From NCBI GenBank assembly GCA_020059395.1, contig JAGVCC010000351.1:1-49947 (forward strand): a stretch of DNA of 49,947 nucleotides, in the 5' to 3' direction. Below, piece by piece: positions 15,790-49,210 of this stretch. A program made the position numbers and the translations under genes. This DNA comes from Chitinophagales bacterium (GTDB lineage Bacteria > Bacteroidota > Bacteroidia > Chitinophagales > Chitinophagaceae). The notes beneath the pieces were generated by a model. That model ran no database searches and was not told where the DNA came from. It saw only the letters and a list, made by a program, of their open reading frames with translations. Within the stretch, counting starts at the first letter, position 1. The number at the start of each line of letters is the position of its first letter.

Positions 15790-16881
15790 TTAAACAGGGC
15801 AAACAGGCATTGCAATTGAATTACTGCAATCATGGTACCTGATGATGCCATTAGTAGTGGCAAGAGCACCACAACCACCAGCTTTGTTAACTGCAAGCTC
15901 TAAATGCAGATAAGCTTCAAATGTCCAGGCCTTACATTCGTAGTCATACCTCCAATCCCAATCTACAGTTAAGCCGGTGGTTGGTAAAACCACACTGCCA
16001 TTACTGTACAGGTCTGTTACTTCAGTTTTGTAAGGTCCTGCATTTTCATTGTAGCTTACCAGTTGCACAGCGCCTGGGCTTAACTGCAGAAAATCAGACA
16101 AGCCAATAGAGGCATCCATATTTCTGTTGTAGTAAGCGTAAGGAGTTGAATCATCAACTTTGGTAAGGTCTATACCGGCACTGTTTAAGCCGCTCCATTT
16201 TAAGAATGAAGAAATCTTGTTCAAAATTTTACCGCCAACTAAAGCATATTGGCCTTCACCCATAATATCAGCATAATTCTGATCCATCCACCACAATGCG
16301 TCAGGGTTTAAAACAGAGCTGTTGGTGATGGTATTTTGGTTAAAGAAAGGCAGGTTTGTTAAAGCCTCGCCGGATGCATTGGTACCAACAAAAGTTAACA
16401 ACAATTCACCAAGCTTCTTATCAAGCGCCTCTTCAAAACGCATCAAATACCTGATGATATGGCGCTGAATATAACTTTGGTCTGTTTCTGTGCAATACTT
16501 TGACATGTCTGCACGGGTAAATTGCAGCTTAAGTGGATTGCCGACACCATCGCAATGGCGGAAGGCATTTCCTGTTAAATCAAAAACAAGCTCTTTAGAT
16601 GGGTTGCTGAAAACTTGTTTAACAGTAGTGCAATCCACTGCTGGGCTGCATACATCAAAACAGTAAGGCTCATCAACTAAAAAAGCAACCGGCCTTTTTT
16701 TACCAGGCACAGAGGTTAAATCTATCTGTTTAAATCCACGGGTATTTTGCGGGCTCAGCAAATATTTAATTAAGGCAGTTGAACCGCCTGTTTTAAACTG
16801 AGCCGCATTCATTTTGTAAAAATCAACATAATTGGCCTGTAAGGCCCTGCAGGCGTATGTGCCTATATTGCTAAATGGCAT
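15790..16881 (-). CDS. Major capsid protein (probable)
   Basis: 363 aa, directly downstream of the scaffold gene, in the expected place and size for an HK97-fold capsid protein. Features include a long helix around RHIIRYLMRFEEALDKKLGE (spine-helix-like), mixed alpha/beta throughout and a Cys-rich C-terminus. I do not recognise a diagnostic motif, so the call rests on size, scaffold neighbour and the leader element at 16920-16965. No capsid protease gene is evident. Confidence 0.7.
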   Translation of the reverse strand: MPFSNIGTYACRALQANYVDFYKMNAAQFKTGGSTALIKYLLSPQNTRGFKQIDLTSVPGKKRPVAFLVDEPYCFDVCSPAVDCTTVKQVFSNPSKELVFDLTGNAFRHCDGVGNPLKLQFTRADMSKYCTETDQSYIQRHIIRYLMRFEEALDKKLGELLLTFVGTNASGEALTNLPFFNQNTITNSSVLNPDALWWMDQNYADIMGEGQYALVGGKILNKISSFLKWSGLNSAGIDLTKVDDSTPYAYYNRNMDASIGLSDFLQLSPGAVQLVSYNENAGPYKTEVTDLYSNGSVVLPTTGLTVDWDWRYDYECKAWTFEAYLHLELAVNKAGGCGALATTNGIIRYHDCSNSIAMPVCPV

Positions 16882-16919
16882 AATAAATCATTTTTAAATG
16901 TTAGAAAATCACCTTTAAA

Positions 16920-16965
16920 GCCAGTGTGGGCTGAGTGGTTTTCGCATTTAAGCCATGCGGTAGCG
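16920..16965 (-). ncRNA. Structured 5' leader element A, upstream of capsid gene
   Basis: On the minus strand this reads CGCTAC, a 5-bp stem (CGCAT/ATGCG) closing a GGCTTAA loop, then AAAACC and CACTGGC. The same order, with an identical loop but a different, still fully paired stem, occurs at 27714-27761 upstream of the putative tail-tube gene. The element ends 38 nt before the capsid start codon. Covariation between the two copies argues for a conserved RNA hairpin. Confidence 0.6.
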
Positions 16966-17004: not shown

Positions 17005-17880
17005 CTAAGCTTTAGGTGCGTTAGCGTTAATTTTGTCCATAATGTGGCTGCTAATACCTAAGCCGCCTTTTTCATCAGGATGAACATCAACCGTAACTTT
17101 ACCACCTGTTTTGCCGGGTGCTGCAGGCGCAGCAATTAAACCATCGGCTGTTAGTTTTTTTACCATCAGCTCTTTAAGCGTTACCGCTTTAGAACCATCA
17201 AGTACATCAAGATTAGGATTAGCCTTTTGCTTTGGCAATGCGGATAAACCGTTCACAACAAAAGCATATTCATCTTTCAACTCCGCAGCTAATTTTGCCA
17301 CCAAGTATTGCGCCGGTGCTTTTAAATTTTCTACTGTGGCCAGTTCGGCAAGTATGATAAAATCTAACTTTTCGCTGTTAAACTTTGTTTCATAATCCTG
17401 TTTAATCTTGCCTTCCCTGGTGGGTATATCTAATTCTAAATCTTCCAGTTTTTTACGTGTTTCAACTAACTGCTGCTGCAGTTGTTTATCACTCGATTTT
17501 GTGGCCGCAAATTTTTCTGCAGCTTTTGTAACAAACACTTCCAGTTTGTTTTTATCTTCCTCTGGCAAGTCAGTAATATCAGCTTCTGTAAGGCCAAGGC
17601 CTTTTAAAACTTTTTGCCTGGTAATATTGGCAGCACGGCCATATTGCTCACTTTCCAGTTTCTTCTTAAAATCCGCATGCACATTTTCTGTACTCAGGCT
17701 TTCCCAAAATTTTGGATCATTCTTTACCTGCGTTTCAATATTGGTTTTTATTTTACCAACGTAATCATCCACTTTAAAATCTTCGGGCTTGGCATCAGCG
17801 GGCAGTGCTAAAATTGCTTCAATGTCTGCGGCTTCAATACCAGCAGATGTAATCAAGGTGTTTAGATGTTCTTGTGCCAT
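17005..17880 (-). CDS. Capsid scaffolding protein
   Basis: 291 aa, highly charged and mostly helical. A long central coiled coil (about 125-175, KLEDLELDIPTREGKIKQDY) and a glycine/proline linker before the C-terminal end (PGKTGGKVTVDVHPDE) are typical of phage scaffolds. It lies immediately before the probable capsid gene. Scaffolds guide procapsid assembly and then leave or are degraded; no protease domain is seen here. Confidence 0.75.
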   Translation of the reverse strand: MAQEHLNTLITSAGIEAADIEAILALPADAKPEDFKVDDYVGKIKTNIETQVKNDPKFWESLSTENVHADFKKKLESEQYGRAANITRQKVLKGLGLTEADITDLPEEDKNKLEVFVTKAAEKFAATKSSDKQLQQQLVETRKKLEDLELDIPTREGKIKQDYETKFNSEKLDFIILAELATVENLKAPAQYLVAKLAAELKDEYAFVVNGLSALPKQKANPNLDVLDGSKAVTLKELMVKKLTADGLIAAPAAPGKTGGKVTVDVHPDEKGGLGISSHIMDKINANAPKA

Positions 17881-17885
17881 CGAAT

Positions 17886-18104
17886 TTATTTAATTTGTGA
17901 CTTTAAGTACTCAATTTTATCTTTCAGCATGTTAATGGTTGCTGATTGTGCCAACCATTTTTGCTTATACCAATTTGCAGCTTCGGTATCATTTTCAAAA
18001 TCTATTATTACAACTTTTCCGTCTTTATCAACAAGTTCAAACTTGTTATTCCTTATCCCCTTTGTAAGTTCATCTCCATTTTTATCATAAATACCTAAAC
18101 CCAT
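17886..18104 (-). CDS. Small hypothetical protein
   Basis: 72 aa. An N-terminal part with beta-hairpin character (IYDKNGDEL, FELVDKDGKVVIIDF) is followed by a helical C-terminus. It sits 5 bp before the scaffold gene and 13 bp after a tRNA gene. No family recognised. Confidence 0.6.
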   Translation of the reverse strand: MGLGIYDKNGDELTKGIRNNKFELVDKDGKVVIIDFENDTEAANWYKQKWLAQSATINMLKDKIEYLKSQIK

Positions 18105-18117
18105 ATTAAATTTTTAG

Positions 18118-18189
18118 TTGCACTGGCAGGAATCGAACCTGCGGCCTTGAGATTATGAGACTCACGAGCTACCGCTGCTCTACAGTGCG
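18118..18189 (-). tRNA. tRNA-Met-type (anticodon CAT), initiator-like C1-A72
   Basis: 72 nt without an encoded CCA. The cloverleaf is readable on the minus strand: acceptor CGCACTG/CAGTGCA, D stem GAGC/GCTC, anticodon loop CTCATAA (anticodon CAT), T arm GCAGG-TTCGATT-CCTGC. The first acceptor pair is C1-A72, the mismatch that marks bacterial initiator tRNA-fMet. The three G-C pairs of an initiator anticodon stem are absent (TGAGT/TCTCA). It could be an elongator Met or a CAT-anticodon tRNA-Ile (lysidine type). Confidence 0.85.
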
Positions 18190-23755: not shown

Positions 23756-25282
23756 TTATTTTACTAAGTTTATAAATGCTTTTTCATTAAATAGTATATC
23801 CTTACTTATACTCCTAAACTGCCCACGGTAATAAACCAAAATCTTTCTTATTTCATCATTCCATCCGGCTCTCAAGTTCAGCATCAGCGTCCTTATAGAT
23901 AAATTTGGCAAAACATCAACAACTACCACATTTGCTTGTTGGCCTGCTTTTCCCATTTGAGTAATAAATGTTTTTGCAGAACCACCAGTTATTCTTTTTA
24001 ATTCAATAGCTTCCGAATAAAAGGTTTTACTATCAATAATAAATGCATCATTGTTTTTTGATTCTCTTCTTTTTTCAAAAGCCGAAATGTTTGGTATTAT
24101 AACATGCTTGCCTGCGTTTGCCAACTTTATAAAACTCTGCAATTCATCATCAGAATATTTTGAACCTTCAACAGCAAAAACTTTTGCATTAATTTTTTTA
24201 TTTTCAAAAAGCACACCATGCTTATTTTTTCGCAAAAAATTATTCATTGCATTCTTTCTCACAATTGGCGCCACCTTCGCCTTCATAGTATCATACATAT
24301 TTTTCATTGGGCCAATCAATAATGGGTCTGCTGTAAGGATTAATGGCTTGCTCACAGCTTCTTTTTCTATTTTAGAGGTATCCCCTTTTTTTACTGCTGT
24401 TGGCTTACCATTTATTATATCTTCGTTCACCCCTATTTGGTCACCTTCTTTCAGCATAGCCGGCGTAAACTCATGCCTGCATCCCCAATGCAGTTTATTA
24501 AATGGCAAATTATTAAACGTGGTGCCTTTTACCAATCCATTCTTTTCTGCAATCTCTTTTAGTGCTGGCCAGTCTTCCAACTTTATAATACCATCCAGGT
24601 TATTAATACCGTAACGGCACTGGGCACTGCTGGTTGCAATTAAACTGCCGCTCATAATTAAGTGGCTGTAATCAAAAGTATCCATCAACTTTTTATTAAT
24701 GGCGCCAGTATAACTATCTACTGCCTGTTGACTTGTTTGTGTTAAGTAGTTTTTCAGCTTGCCGCTTTTATCACCCGGACCAAGTATGTAATCGTTAAGC
24801 TGTTTTTTTGCATCTGTCATGTTAGTGCCGGCTGCAATATTTTGATACAATTGGTCCCGGAGTGGCTGCACAAATTCAGCATTCAATCCATTTTCTGTGT
24901 AAGCATTTATTATTTCTCCCACCACAAGCTTTTGGGCTGGGCCAATATCTGCCTTACTCCAATCAATACCATTTGTTCCCTCTTGGTATTGCTGCATTAC
25001 GGTTCCAATTTTTGGCAGTTCTTTTACGAAAGATGTTACAGCTCCTTTGTAAGATTGAAGCTGCGTTAACACTTTCATAAAACCTTCATCAAACTGGTTT
25101 AAAATCTGCAATGTGTCTTCAGTTGCTGTCAAAGAGCCTGCCTTAACATCAAGGCTATTATCCATCCATTCAATTAAAGCATCGTAAGCAAAATTTTCAA
25201 TTTCAGGTATTACCGTTATAATCCTGTTTTCGTTAGCCAGCTTCAACGCTTCCAGTGCCTTTATATATTCCGCATAACTCAT
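23756..25282 (-). CDS. Mu gpF/SPP1 gp7-like head morphogenesis protein with C-terminal nuclease-like toxin domain
   Basis: 508 aa. The N-terminal about 290 residues are a minor head protein: helical core and the signature LHWGCRHEFTPAM (264-276). After a linker (about 290-340) a second domain (about 345-495) has DAFIIDSKTFYSEAIELKRI and KTFITQMGKAGQQANVVVVD. This strand-Asp-x-Lys-strand-Glu-x-Lys layout resembles the nuclease domains of polymorphic toxins (CdiA tRNase and phage-Barnase/ColicinE5 groups). Fusions of this type to head proteins are known in phages. Co-ejection with DNA is inferred. The gene overlaps the portal gene by 4 bp. Confidence 0.8.
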   Translation of the reverse strand: MSYAEYIKALEALKLANENRIITVIPEIENFAYDALIEWMDNSLDVKAGSLTATEDTLQILNQFDEGFMKVLTQLQSYKGAVTSFVKELPKIGTVMQQYQEGTNGIDWSKADIGPAQKLVVGEIINAYTENGLNAEFVQPLRDQLYQNIAAGTNMTDAKKQLNDYILGPGDKSGKLKNYLTQTSQQAVDSYTGAINKKLMDTFDYSHLIMSGSLIATSSAQCRYGINNLDGIIKLEDWPALKEIAEKNGLVKGTTFNNLPFNKLHWGCRHEFTPAMLKEGDQIGVNEDIINGKPTAVKKGDTSKIEKEAVSKPLILTADPLLIGPMKNMYDTMKAKVAPIVRKNAMNNFLRKNKHGVLFENKKINAKVFAVEGSKYSDDELQSFIKLANAGKHVIIPNISAFEKRRESKNNDAFIIDSKTFYSEAIELKRITGGSAKTFITQMGKAGQQANVVVVDVLPNLSIRTLMLNLRAGWNDEIRKILVYYRGQFRSISKDILFNEKAFINLVK

Positions 25283-27066
25283 GCCGTTGCAGCTTTAACA
25301 GCTTCTTTTAATGGCGCTGCTGCAGGCTGCAACTTTTCAATAGCTGCTGTGATTAGCGCAACAATCACATCATCTGTTTTTTCAAACAATAACTTATCCT
25401 GTTCATATAGCTGCATTAAAATCGAATAGGCATAAATATGAGTAGTCCACGCACTCACAGTTACAGCATTATTACTTTTAAATGTTTGCACATCTTTGTT
25501 GCTGTAAAACAATAAAGGATCTACAAGCTTTAATATTTTCAATGCTTTTACAACTGGCGAAGATTTTGATACAAACTTGTGTACAAAGTTTTCCACTTGC
25601 TGTGCCTTAACAAATATGGGAGCTTCACTGCTGATTATTGTATCTAATGCATCAAAAGCTTCTGTTTCTGTTACCAACGCAAAAGAAATCGGCTGCTCCA
25701 AACTCACCTCTGCCGGGGTGCCATTTTCGTATGCCTCAATTATTTGAATTACCTGTTTTAAATCGGTATTCAAGGCCTTACTTATATTTTGTATCCAAGA
25801 GTACTCCCCTTCCTTGTCTAACTGTTTTGCCTTGGCGCTTTCAGTGTTACCCGTAAGTTGTTTTTGCTGAATAAAAACGGACTCTTCGGCCATGGATAAA
25901 TAAGTTTTCCAGCTATCCTTTGAATAGTTAAGAATTGAAGCATCCGGAGTATGAAAGCTAACAGGGTCAGCAGCTAAAAGATTTTTTACAATCTCTGGAT
26001 CAGTTAAGCCAGTATCAATCTTTTTTTGATATACTTTATAGGGACTTTGCACCGTCATATAACCAGAACCTTTACAGCGGGAGCATGTTGTTTGTTTGCC
26101 TTCCGCATCTGTTATATGTCCATCAGTACATGTAAGGTTATCACATGGTGTTTGAATTTCACTCATGCGTGGATAGCTATACATTAAATCAACTGCACGG
26201 TGGTTCCGGTGCTGCAACAATGCAAGGTTGCCGAACGGGATAAAGGAATTAACAAAACTTTCATTAATATCAAGCTGCAGGTTTAGTGCAGAAACTTTAA
26301 AGGCTGGTATAGCGTCTAGAGGCGCATCGAAAAAATACACATCATACTCATACTCCTTGCTATCTTTAATTTTAGCAAAGCGTAAAATATACTCCTTGGT
26401 GAAAACATGATAAACCGCGTTTGTAATACTGCAAATTACCTGCTGGTTATATGTTCGCTCAACCAAAGTTTTTGCATTTACATTCTTTATTTTCTCATCA
26501 TAAAAAACCTCACGTTTAACTACACTATCAGTAACCCTGTATTCTTTTTCGCTTTCGCTTTCGCTCACAAATACAACCATATCCTGGCCAATTTCCTTTA
26601 TATTCTTGTGGCTTAAAAAACGCACCATTTCGCCACCATGGATTTCTGTATATCTTTTAGGATATACGGCACACAAGCTGTTCGGGTCGGTAGCTATCGC
26701 TGCATCAATCCACTGTTGCAGAAAAAAGGAAAAAAGATTTTGATTGCAAAAATTGCTGCTGTTTATAAAAGCAATAGTGCCATCGCTGGCACTTACTGAA
26801 AAACTGCTGTTTGAAAAGATTCGGGTAATGTTATTGATGGCCTTCCAGATACTGGCTTTAGTAATTGGCTCGTATGTGTTAACACAATGATTTTTACTTT
26901 CCGGGTGTTCGTTCGGAAAAAGCGTATCTACTTTAGTAAACAGCAGGCCCTTAGAATGTACCTGCAGGTTATTGCAGATACGGCTCATATAGTCTTTCTT
27001 CCATTGCGGCATATCAAATTGTACAGCTTTTTTTATAAGCTGTACAATTTCAATTTCTGTAGGCAT
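25279..27066 (-). CDS. Portal protein with zinc-ribbon insert
   Basis: 595 aa, in the usual place before the minor head protein, and of portal size. An N-terminal region with WKAINNITRIF, a clip/stem region, and a long C-terminal helical part support the call. A four-cysteine insert (C308, C313, C328, C331; CDNLTC and CSRCKGSG) looks like a DnaJ-type zinc ribbon and is unusual in portals. A Ser/Glu repeat (SESESE) lies near residue 170. The call rests on position, length and general layout. Confidence 0.75.
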   Translation of the reverse strand: MPTEIEIVQLIKKAVQFDMPQWKKDYMSRICNNLQVHSKGLLFTKVDTLFPNEHPESKNHCVNTYEPITKASIWKAINNITRIFSNSSFSVSASDGTIAFINSSNFCNQNLFSFFLQQWIDAAIATDPNSLCAVYPKRYTEIHGGEMVRFLSHKNIKEIGQDMVVFVSESESEKEYRVTDSVVKREVFYDEKIKNVNAKTLVERTYNQQVICSITNAVYHVFTKEYILRFAKIKDSKEYEYDVYFFDAPLDAIPAFKVSALNLQLDINESFVNSFIPFGNLALLQHRNHRAVDLMYSYPRMSEIQTPCDNLTCTDGHITDAEGKQTTCSRCKGSGYMTVQSPYKVYQKKIDTGLTDPEIVKNLLAADPVSFHTPDASILNYSKDSWKTYLSMAEESVFIQQKQLTGNTESAKAKQLDKEGEYSWIQNISKALNTDLKQVIQIIEAYENGTPAEVSLEQPISFALVTETEAFDALDTIISSEAPIFVKAQQVENFVHKFVSKSSPVVKALKILKLVDPLLFYSNKDVQTFKSNNAVTVSAWTTHIYAYSILMQLYEQDKLLFEKTDDVIVALITAAIEKLQPAAAPLKEAVKAATA

Positions 27067-27072
27067 CGGTAA

Positions 27073-27666
27073 TTACGCTTTAGGTACTATTGCAGATAAT
27101 CCGGTAACGGTATACAATTTGGGTTTTTTAAATTCCACCCAGCTAATCTCAAATGTTACAGACTGCAGGTCTTCAGAGCTTTCGGGAACTATCCAGTCGA
27201 AATCACTTACGCTGAATGTGCCAATTGGCAATACAACATCTGCGCCATCGCACATGCGTGCAATAATTTGAAAATTATTATACCTTGTTAACAATGCGTT
27301 TACCTGCTCAGTGGTAACATCAGCACTTGTTTTGTCAAAACTTTTTATGGTATACTTCAGTGCCCAGGTAGTGCTAATAATTTGTTCGCCCCGGCAACTG
27401 CCAACCTTTTCTTTTTTATCAGATTTTTTTGCAATGGAACCAAGGCCTATACCTAAGTTTCCTAATTTTCCTGCGCCAACAAGCGTGGTCCACCATGCGG
27501 TGTTCAATATGTTTACCTGACTTAAAGTTTCAGTACATGGCACAACATAAATGTCGTTAACACCGCCGTATAAAAACTCAAGAATACAGGATGCGTCCCT
27601 TGTAGGCATCGGTACTACCGGGCAGGCTACGCTTACTAAACAAGCAGGCCCTGTTGATACTGGCAT
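27073..27666 (-). CDS. Putative major tail tube protein
   Basis: 197 aa. Beta-rich with a Gly-rich middle (LVGAGKLGNLGIGLGSIAKK) and a C-terminal beta domain (PIGTFSVSDFDWIV and VTFEISWVEF). Size fits a tail tube protein. It follows the tail genes leftwards, and its leader shares the structured element and an AT-rich site that otherwise precede or accompany the capsid and structural genes. High expression is therefore expected. No sequence motif is diagnostic. Confidence 0.5.
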   Translation of the reverse strand: MPVSTGPACLVSVACPVVPMPTRDASCILEFLYGGVNDIYVVPCTETLSQVNILNTAWWTTLVGAGKLGNLGIGLGSIAKKSDKKEKVGSCRGEQIISTTWALKYTIKSFDKTSADVTTEQVNALLTRYNNFQIIARMCDGADVVLPIGTFSVSDFDWIVPESSEDLQSVTFEISWVEFKKPKLYTVTGLSAIVPKA

Positions 27667-27713
27667 AATTTTATTTTTTTGTGTGAGAAGAAATTGTTGT
27701 TCTTAGCACAGTT

Positions 27714-27761
27714 AGCCAGTGCAGGCGATGGAGTTTTGCCGATTTAAGCCATCGGCGAAGC
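27714..27761 (-). ncRNA. Structured 5' leader element B, upstream of tail-tube candidate
   Basis: On the minus strand: CGCTTC, a 6-bp stem (GCCGAT/ATCGGC) closing the loop GGCTTAA, AAAAC, and CACTGGCT. The loop and flanks match element A at the capsid gene, while the stem sequence differs in a compensated way. It ends 47 nt before the start codon. A promoter-like TACCTTGC lies at 27783-27776, so the element would be near the 5' end of the mRNA. Confidence 0.6.
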
Positions 27762-37927: not shown

Positions 37928-38000
37928 AGCGGCAAGGTGGAATCGAACCCCATCTCCCAGCTGGATGGCCGGGCACTATAACCAGTTAAGCTATTGCCGC
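37928..38000 (-). tRNA. tRNA-like gene with an 8-nt anticodon loop (anticodon uncertain)
   Basis: 73 nt. The acceptor stem GCGGCAA/TTGCCGC is perfect, D-arm GCTTAACTGGTTATAGT is normal-looking, and the anticodon stem CCCGG/CTGGG encloses CCATCCAG, 8 nt instead of 7. The T stem (TGGGG/CCACC around TTCGATT) has two mismatches. No single anticodon can be set with confidence. It may be a +1-frameshift-suppressor-like tRNA, a degraded one, or act as an mRNA punctuation signal. It overlaps the end of the Mom-like gene by 15 bp. Confidence 0.6.
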
Positions 38001-38606
38001 AGGTATGGCCTTTGGGTATGGCTTATGCAGGCTTTTGCATAAGGGCACCATACTTTTATCAGCCGGAAAAATGTATTTGAATTTATCAGTGCCTTTTATC
38101 TCAATGCAATCACTAACCTTTGGGCACCGCTTAGTATTATTATCCTTAAACCCACTATTACTAACGTTTCTGTTGTGATACTTACGCCCGGTTCTTTTAT
38201 GTATATAACTAGGGGTATCACCCTTTGAAACACCTGTATAATACCAGTTTGTTGCCTGGTATATGGTACCAATATGTTTCTGGCCGGTATCTGCAAAGCT
38301 GATGATTAGCTTTACCAATGGGTTTAATTTTTTAACAAGATTTAAGGAAATGGAAATGGCTTTACTGGTACTCTCCTGCTTACCATTCAATGCCACACGT
38401 ACCAGCTCTATCACCTGCCCCTGCATTAATTTGTAAGGCATGGCTATTTTATTACTGGCTCCTTTACTGTACAAAATTACCCCACACCATTCACCAGTAC
38501 TATTAAAAACAGAAAAGCTACAGCCAAACGGCGGCATTGTTTTACTGTAGTGAAAATTCATTACAGCGTACTTAGTGGCTTTGTATGTGGCAATTTCAAG
38601 TTTCAT
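37986..38606 (-). CDS. Mom-like DNA-modification protein
   Basis: 206 aa. The region EWCGVILYSKGASNKIA (about 39-55) and the block ISFADTGQKHIGTIYQATNW followed by YYTG (about 102-124) match the Mu Mom family, a GNAT-like enzyme that modifies adenine in phage DNA and blocks host restriction. A C-terminal Cys pair (CPKVSDC) may bind metal. It overlaps the ParB-like gene upstream by 4 bp and the tRNA-like gene downstream by 15 bp. Confidence 0.8.
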   Translation of the reverse strand: MKLEIATYKATKYAVMNFHYSKTMPPFGCSFSVFNSTGEWCGVILYSKGASNKIAMPYKLMQGQVIELVRVALNGKQESTSKAISISLNLVKKLNPLVKLIISFADTGQKHIGTIYQATNWYYTGVSKGDTPSYIHKRTGRKYHNRNVSNSGFKDNNTKRCPKVSDCIEIKGTDKFKYIFPADKSMVPLCKSLHKPYPKAIPAAIA

Positions 38607-47842: not shown

Positions 47843-48145
47843 TTATGTAAACTCAAACCGCCTGTTAATTTTCTGTATCGTTGTAAAAAAAGGCATTTCA
47901 TGTTCGGGCACCTGCTTTATTGTTTCCATCAGTACACCAGAGCCGGTAAACAGTACACGCATTTCATTATTCACTTCTATTTGCAGGTGCAGGCACATGC
48001 CATTTCCCTTCTCTTTGTACTTTGATGTTTCTATTTTGTATGCCAGTACTTTTATCTGTTTGCCTATCACCGATTCCGGAGAAATTTTGTCTCCCGTAAA
48101 ACTTTTTGAGGGTACTGTTATTCCCAGTTGACTGAACTGTTTCAT
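47843..48145 (-). CDS. Small beta-rich protein, candidate DGR accessory factor
   Basis: 100 aa, starting inside the 3' end of the RT gene (179-bp overlap, different frame). It is beta-rich (GKQIKVLAYKIETSKY; GMCLHLQIEVNNEMRVLFTG; FFTTIQKINRRFEFT), resembling an OB-type or single-strand-binding fold. There is no four-helix Avd protein in this DGR, so this may take its place. From memory, proteins of this pattern (GK-CLHLQI-FTGS) lie next to DGR RTs in other Bacteroidota; not checked. Confidence 0.65.
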   Translation of the reverse strand: MKQFSQLGITVPSKSFTGDKISPESVIGKQIKVLAYKIETSKYKEKGNGMCLHLQIEVNNEMRVLFTGSGVLMETIKQVPEHEMPFFTTIQKINRRFEFT

Positions 48146-49091
48146 TAATTAGTTTTTTGATAAGGTTTTTACTATTACAATGTTTTGCCCATCCCCAATA
48201 AGCAGCAATCGTTTCAGGTGCAGCATTGCGGCTCACCTTACGGGCAAAATTTTGTTTGATGGATTTACGCAACCTGATGTGTGTATGATAAAACACATAG
48301 CCCACGAAATCAATACCACGGCTGGCCACCGGAAACACCTGGTAGTTATCTTTCAGCTGCAGTCTTAAGTTATCCTGCAAATAATTGGAAATATCAATTC
48401 GGAGCTGGTGCAGCAATTTTTTATCCGGCCCAAGTATCACAAGGTCATCGCAGTAACGGAAGTAATATTTTACACCCTTCACTTCTTTTAACCAATGATC
48501 AAAGTAGCAGAGATAAAAATTTGCAAAATACTGGCTCATAAGATTACCAATCGGCAGGCCATCAGCAGAGTCAATAATTTCATCCAACAGCTGCAGCAGC
48601 TTTTCATCTTTAAACTTTTTTCGCAGCAGTTGTTTTAAAACAACATGGTTAACGCTTGGGTAAAATTTTCTAATGTCCAGCTTTAAGCAGTACCGGGTAC
48701 AGGTTTCATCTGTTAATGCCTTTTTTACATTATTAGCAGCAGCATGTATGCCACGGCCCTTAATGCAACTGTAAGTATCTGCAGTAAAGCAAGCCGTAAA
48801 CACAGGCTCCAGTACATTCATTATTGCATGGTGTGTAATCCTGTCCGGGTAATAAGGCAAAGCATATACAAGCCGTTCCTTTGGCTCATACACTGTAAAT
48901 GTGGAGTAATTTGATGTAGTGTAAGTTTGGCTGCTTAGGCTGTTGTGCAGCGCTTCAATATTGGCATCCCTGTTTTTGTCATGAATGATAACACCTGTTT
49001 GTTTAGATTTTCCCCTGCGTGCAATGGCATCTGCGGCCTGCAGGTTTTGTAAATCTGCTATTTGATTATATGTGTTGTTTATCCTTTTCAA
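47967..49091 (-). CDS. DGR-type reverse transcriptase
   Basis: 374 aa from a TTG at 49091. The RT palm motifs are LKLDIRKFYPSVNH (D139), GLPIGNLMSQYFANF and FRYCDDLVIL (D215, D216). The motif-4 IGxxxSQ, in place of the QGxxxSP of other RTs, is the DGR signature. A finger motif and C-terminal thumb (AAYWGWAKHCNSKNL) follow. The last about 59 residues overlap the next gene and may be dispensable. The enzyme copies the TR RNA with errors at adenines. TR lies about 120 bp upstream and two targets further upstream in the same operon. Confidence 0.95.
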   Translation of the reverse strand: MKRINNTYNQIADLQNLQAADAIARRGKSKQTGVIIHDKNRDANIEALHNSLSSQTYTTSNYSTFTVYEPKERLVYALPYYPDRITHHAIMNVLEPVFTACFTADTYSCIKGRGIHAAANNVKKALTDETCTRYCLKLDIRKFYPSVNHVVLKQLLRKKFKDEKLLQLLDEIIDSADGLPIGNLMSQYFANFYLCYFDHWLKEVKGVKYYFRYCDDLVILGPDKKLLHQLRIDISNYLQDNLRLQLKDNYQVFPVASRGIDFVGYVFYHTHIRLRKSIKQNFARKVSRNAAPETIAAYWGWAKHCNSKNLIKKLINETVQSTGNNSTLKKFYGRQNFSGIGDRQTDKSTGIQNRNIKVQREGKWHVPAPANRSE

Positions 49092-49210
49092 TTTGGGGGA
49101 GCCTTTGCTTTTACAGGTCTTCTTCGCACATATAGCGCTACCAAAGCCCTTTCAAAAAATTTATTTTTTGCCAAGAGGCAGGGTTTGTGATGCGTAAAAA
49201 CTTTAGCCTG

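Follow-up and report, generated by a model that had tools for sequence, protein, structure and literature searches.

The window, by which we mean the whole 49,947-nt stretch of DNA that was analyzed, carries a putative major capsid gene of 363 amino acids at positions 15790 to 16881 and a putative tail-tube-like gene of 197 amino acids at 27073 to 27666, both on the minus strand. The capsid gene was assigned by its place and its distant homologues. The putative tube gene lies directly upstream of the portal gene (25279 to 27066), in the same place as the 211- to 217-amino-acid genes of relatives (alignment A3). Both identities are drawn from place, size, and homologous position and are putative. 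The genes of the window are very divergent: the portal has no close match, and the capsid candidate has no match in the databases. Profile, PDB, and fold searches with both putative gene products came back empty. Structure prediction of both gene products gave confidence that was too low, and the tube fold was poor.

Other features of the window were also recorded. A tRNA-Met(CAU) gene (18117 to 18189, minus strand) lies within the structural gene block, upstream of the open reading frame at 17005 to 17880. A second tRNA-like match to Rfam (37 bits; 37928 to 38000, minus strand) was not called by ARAGORN and adjoins a Mom-like DNA-modification open reading frame at 37986 to 38606. The Rfam RT-17 RNA motif is present at 49104 to 49185 (minus strand), directly upstream of a reverse transcriptase gene (47967 to 49091, minus strand; phrog_1423); motif and gene possibly form a diversity-generating or other reverse transcriptase system of the prophage.

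Two matching leaders in the window

Copy A (minus strand, 16919 to 16964) reads CGCTAC-CGCAT-GGCTTAA-ATGCG-AAAAC-N11-CACTGGC and is followed 38 nt downstream by the capsid ATG at 16881. Copy B (minus strand, 27714 to 27761) reads CGCTTC-GCCGAT-GGCTTAA-ATCGGC-AAAAC-N11-CACTGGC, with the ATG of the putative tube gene at 27666, 47 nt downstream. The stems of the two copies differ in two pairs on both sides, and pairing is kept. The original prediction was thus right about both copies, their positions, and their differing yet fully paired stems. The word GGCTTAA is itself not rare in the window, with 19 sites versus 14 expected; a stem of at least 5 pairs surrounds 2 of the 19, which are copies A and B only. 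Local alignment of leaders A and B gave a score of 32, which was equalled by 1 of 2,000 shuffled pairs.

The exact copy pattern has two matches in the host genome assembly, copies A and B, and its matches in IMG/VR are confined to this same contig. With a looser pattern searched against IMG/VR and GTDB contigs, none of the matches listed had the stem and its context. In the other genomic matches to the copy sequence, the combination of stem and context is missing. A sequence-based model of the two copies had been proposed for finding relatives; it found none in IMG/VR or among the GTDB matches listed, and the architecture alone is shared.

The same predicted fold in relatives

Relatives were reached through distant portal matches in other genomes, where the same module was found in prophage stretches. 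In these relatives, the leader of the capsid homologue resembles the leader of the pre-portal gene within one phage but not across phages. The twin leaders of G492 (GAGTAT-CCGCGCCTGTGCGAAGGCGCC-TAAA..TATCGCAGCAGG) aligned with a score of 76, whereas the best of 500 shuffles scored 30, and those of G134 (GAGGC..GTTGAGCCTATC-AATCAACCCA) scored 52, compared to 28 in shuffles. Twin leaders thus recur before this pair of genes.

The hairpin loop of the relatives' leaders is predicted to pair with downstream sequence, which gives H-type pseudoknots. In the tube leader of G505, knot 1 is predicted as ACGC-c-[GGUUGU]-GCGU-uaaa-[ACAGCC] and knot 2 as CUACGU-uguga-[GGAGGC]-ACGUAG-cgaa-[GCCUCU]; in that of G134, knot 1 is AGGC-aac-[GUUGA]-GCCU-auccaa-[UCAAC] and knot 2 is AGGG-caa-[GGUCUG]-u-CCCU-gagaaaauc-[UAGACU]. 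Tandem pseudoknots, unrelated in sequence, are predicted ahead of the putative capsid and putative tube genes of the distant prophages and ahead of their tape-measure genes, an identity that PHROGs support in G286. The knots are about 21 to 35 nt each and recur with a period of about 30 to 36 nt.

This period is one of two points in favor of a type III antitoxin-like decoy, in which the tandem knots would mimic ToxI repeats and neutralize a host RNase toxin during infection. The other is that ToxI is a series of repeats, each of which folds as an H-type pseudoknot (PMC8860590). The two knots of a leader are not sequence repeats of each other and differ between phages, and they are followed by virion genes rather than by a terminator and toxin gene. 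We consider a decoy highly improbable.

Several further observations were made in the relatives. The capsid leaders of G286 (L024, upstream of 10940) and G605 (L164, upstream of 7541) may hold three to four pseudoknots in a row. In G492, a tRNA gene (L170, 7427 to 7499) lies between the promoter-like sequence TATTTTTG and the capsid pseudoknot leader; processing of the tRNA would therefore create a 5' end some 14 nt ahead of knot 1. The same structural module occurs in several species of two genera (G286, G605, G572, G1034, and G1088; G387, G593, and G508) and could represent a prophage that is widespread or has been domesticated. In G286, opposite-strand genes are inserted between portal and capsid.

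Predicted anatomy of leaders A and B

When the topology seen in the relatives was applied to the window, each of the two leaders was predicted to form two tandem H-type pseudoknots, with 28 nt (A) or 39 nt (B) between the end of the fold and the start codon. All leader coordinates in this section are on the minus strand. In leader A, pseudoknot 1 (16943 to 16964) consists of S1 GCU (16964 to 16962)/GGC (16954 to 16952), L1 AC, S2 CGCAU (16959 to 16955)/AUGCG (16947 to 16943), and L3 UUAA. Its S1 has three pairs only, including one G-U, and pairs 3 and 4 of its S2 are changed on both sides relative to copy B. Pseudoknot 2 (16910 to 16932) consists of S1 AGCC (16932 to 16929)/GGCU (16922 to 16919), L1 CA, S2 CACU (16926 to 16923)/GGUG (16913 to 16910), and L3 UUAAA, and is followed by an A/U-rich spacer of 28 nt (16882 to 16909) up to the ATG. 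In leader B, pseudoknot 1 (27738 to 27761) has S1 GCU (27761 to 27759)/GGC (27750 to 27748), L1 UC, S2 GCCGAU (27756 to 27751)/AUCGGC (27743 to 27738), and L3 UUAA. Pseudoknot 2 (27706 to 27726) has S1 GCC (27726 to 27724)/GGC (27717 to 27715), L1 U, S2 GCAC (27722 to 27719)/GUGC (27709 to 27706), L2 U, and L3 UAACU; an A-rich spacer of 39 nt (27667 to 27705) leads to the ATG. The S1 helices of the window leaders are short, at three to four pairs. The tandem-knot score was equalled by 1 of 200 shuffles for leader A and by 0 of 200 for leader B.

With loop and flank predicted to pair and a second structure behind them, the element is longer than first described, extending over 16910 to 16964 (A) and 27706 to 27761 (B). 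The variable stem of the hairpin noted originally is S2 of knot 1. The model also explains why CGCU, GGC, and CACTGGC are conserved: the first two would supply the S1 strands of knot 1, and CACTGGC would be the core of knot 2. The hairpin had been described with a conserved, unpaired GGCTTAA loop, but in the pseudoknot model GGC pairs with the GCU flank; CACTGGC, taken to be a flank of the hairpin, instead belongs to the second fold. Plain minimum free energy (MFE) folding was weak, with leader z scores of -0.17 and -2.27, and the S1 helices of leader A were absent from the MFE fold, since pseudoknots fall outside such folding.

An alternative in which the loop GGC pairs downstream with (A)GCC was discarded: it would have no L1 loop, and its topology differs from that of the relatives. 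A strong single-pseudoknot candidate, AAUGGU-[UCAGCA]-ACCAUU-aaca-[UGCUGA], was also seen at 17923 to 17960 (minus strand), 43 nt before the open reading frame at 17005 to 17880. It overlaps a small open reading frame (17886 to 18104) and was not counted as a member.

Statistics and covariation

The tandem-knot score was reached by no more than 2 of 200 dinucleotide shuffles in 14 of 20 capsid and tube leaders, A and B among them. An even scan covered 272 genes with at least 80 nt of free upstream space, using up to 150 nt and 100 shuffles each, and a pass was defined as a P value of ≤0.02 with the fold ending 20 to 50 nt before the ATG. Capsid, tube, and tape-measure leaders passed in 15 of 23 cases, compared to 8 of 249 other leaders (Fisher P of about 1e-13). 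Pseudoknot energy alone was not specific in a genome-wide scan. With S1 held fixed, native S2 helices had a mean energy of -7.9 kcal/mol, versus -3.1 kcal/mol when partners were swapped between phages (0 of 5,000 permutations). These statistics have limits: leaders from relatives do not count as independent cases, S2 partly steered the choice of S1, and some of the leaders scored had been used to develop the method.

For covariation, the structure was specified in advance and scored on families that could be aligned; the MAFFT alignments A5, A7, A8, and A10 were left unscored because the knot strands were misplaced. In the capsid knot 1 family (seven sequences), 93.9% of the cells were paired and 4 pairs were changed on both sides, compared to 1.4 in shuffles and 0 to 2 in slid structures. 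In the tape-measure knot 2 family, 89.1% of the cells were paired, and the 4 pairs changed on both sides compare with 0.9 in shuffles and 0 to 1 in slid structures. S2 of capsid knot 2 provides a clean U-A to C-G change, from UCCGC/GCGGA in G387, G555, and G593 to CCCGC/GCGGG in G508.

Once the model had been made, 12 additional capsid leaders were retrieved and scored with fixed settings. Four of these (G1034, G1088, G859, and G759) were equalled by no more than 5 of 200 shuffles, and G508 and G737 were equalled by 9 and 20 of 200, respectively. The fold is clear by inspection in the capsid leaders of G555 and G593, which have an L1 loop of 11 nt, too long for the settings. It is absent from the remaining 4 of the 12, in G802 (two genes), G458, and G1001. 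Among further leaders of other genes, the fold is present before the tube genes of G1034 and G1088, the tube gene of G859, and the tape-measure genes of G1034 and G1088. The tube leaders of G387 and G593 (where the best pair ends 91 to 95 nt away) and the capsid leader of G251 gave no convincing fold. The unrelated Bacteroidota phages B124-14, 6H, FCL-2, and phi10:1 had no consistent tandem fold with this spacing.

These results bear on whether the two window copies arose by plain duplication of one leader within one phage, with no selected structure and with a stem difference that reflects chance or drift. Such a history would fit the presence of this sequence in two copies only and the weak simple folding of the leaders (z scores above). 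Against it, two double changes preserve pairing, and the same architecture stands, in other sequences and with strong statistics, before the same genes in distant relatives. We strongly disfavor plain duplication and assign it a low probability. A conserved RNA structure, as had been proposed, is supported instead: the copies are leaders of virion genes, their stems show compensatory change, and the element recurs before the same genes in relatives.

Position, promoters, and spacer

Knot 2 usually ends about 22 to 47 nt before the ATG. In 7 of 22 leaders, knot 1 is preceded at 11 to 26 nt by a TAnnTTTG promoter. In other leaders (G387, G232, and the IMG/VR capsid), the fold stands directly behind the stop codon of the upstream gene, with no promoter match within 90 nt. 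The position of the fold is thus tied to the start of translation and not to that of transcription, which favors a posttranscriptional role; we infer that the elements act on the mRNA after transcription.

An antitermination mechanism like that of put would have the nascent double fold bind RNA polymerase, allowing read-through of terminators in the long late operon. This is improbable, since several copies lie between genes without a nearby promoter, the position follows the start codon and not the promoter, and put consists of two stem-loops at early promoters rather than pseudoknots. In its favor, some copies are close behind a promoter, and paired RNA early in a transcript recalls HK022 put, whose RNA elements act without a phage protein (PMC11658703).

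The posttranscriptional reading can be set beside data from Prevotella, where a hairpin at -21 did not reduce expression (1.34-fold) but structure in the start region did, and where S1 binding to unstructured leaders has been proposed (PMC3155529). By these results, structure should be tolerable at the position of the knots.

The spacers hold 1.15 UUAA per 35 nt, versus 0.31 before other genes (P = 4e-7), an enrichment to which base composition contributes (shuffles predict 0.69); the leader B spacer has no UUAA. UUAA-containing spacers behind a knot may point to a translational operator like that of T4 gene 32, where a phage RNA-binding protein would read the knot shape, spread over the A/U-rich UUAA spacer, and delay or limit late-gene translation. 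In the T4 gene 32 leader, an unstructured region of more than 40 nt with UUAAA/UAAA repeats comes after an H-type pseudoknot of about 28 nt (PMC535899; PMC3014915), and the geometry predicted for the leaders here appears to match. The twin leaders of one phage also have unpaired bases and flanks in common, which a shared ligand would require. Several points make this operator rather unlikely: the genes served do not encode single-strand-binding proteins, no candidate regulator was identified, leader sequences are wholly different between phages, and the UUAA excess is in part compositional, as noted.

Proposed role and significance

The predicted anatomy of the leaders, the way they recur ahead of the same genes in relatives, and their compensatory changes are evident from the sequence. 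Our preferred reading, held tentatively and with a confidence just short of even, is that the leaders are cis-acting tandem-pseudoknot elements that would protect virion messages, leave an A/U-rich ribosome site open, and set yield. Behind the two tandem H-type knots, a short A/U-rich stretch that is free of structure would lead up to a late virion gene and its start codon. The knots would label the 5' side of the messages for capsid, tube, and tape measure and would shield it from ribonucleases as well as from structure that invades the start region. Judging from promoter type and company, the host is probably a Bacteroidota; a search of the assembly gave no 16S rRNA. Bacteroidota ribosomes are thought not to rely on Shine-Dalgarno pairing, and the A/U-rich spacer would serve as an open landing site for the ribosome. 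The outcome would be that the yield of capsid, tube, and tape-measure proteins is raised or set. Higher translation or mRNA stability, as suggested in the original prediction, is plausible; sequence data do not separate the stability, translation, and operator readings.

More broadly, we regard it as an evenly balanced proposition that these leaders constitute a new class of cis-regulatory RNA, in which tandem-pseudoknot leaders with conserved architecture and almost free sequence would coordinate the output of abundant virion genes in a Bacteroidota prophage lineage through the shape shown to a ribosome, ribonuclease, or phage protein. A recurrent double-pseudoknot leader before several virion genes, in hosts that supposedly do without Shine-Dalgarno pairing, would give a tractable handle on high capsid output in such phages. 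Similar elements may be common yet unseen: because sequence is nearly free and structure alone is kept, motif and covariance searches miss such leaders.

Comparison with known systems

Rfam 15, searched at the gathering score, gave no relevant family match in the window, the leaders, or the relatives, and the open-licence literature searched did not yield any account of phage virion genes with tandem-pseudoknot leaders. The Mu-gpT-DE motif of Rfam has been reported upstream of phage capsid genes and is alike in being an RNA motif upstream of phage head genes; the leaders described here have no relevant Rfam match. HK022 put is likewise a short paired RNA near transcript starts in a phage, whereas the elements here are predicted pseudoknots tied to late-gene start codons, often without a promoter. 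ToxI, the RNA of type III toxin-antitoxin systems, shares tandem H-type pseudoknots and a similar unit length; unlike ToxI, these virion-gene leaders have no near-identical repeats and no terminator with a ToxN-like toxin gene.

The closest known parallel is the gene 32 leader of T4, T2, and RB69. There as in the leaders predicted here, an H-type pseudoknot stands in a phage mRNA leader, and the unstructured, A/U-rich UUAA stretch that runs to the start codon there may have a counterpart in the A/U-rich spacers. The gene 32 leader has one knot and precedes a single-strand-binding protein gene, whereas two tandem knots precede putative capsid, tube, and tape-measure genes here; the sequences are unrelated, and the host here is thought to work without Shine-Dalgarno pairing. 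That the architecture recurs before the same genes in distantly related prophages, in almost completely changed sequence, points to a previously undescribed RNA element, one that would control the amount of virion proteins.
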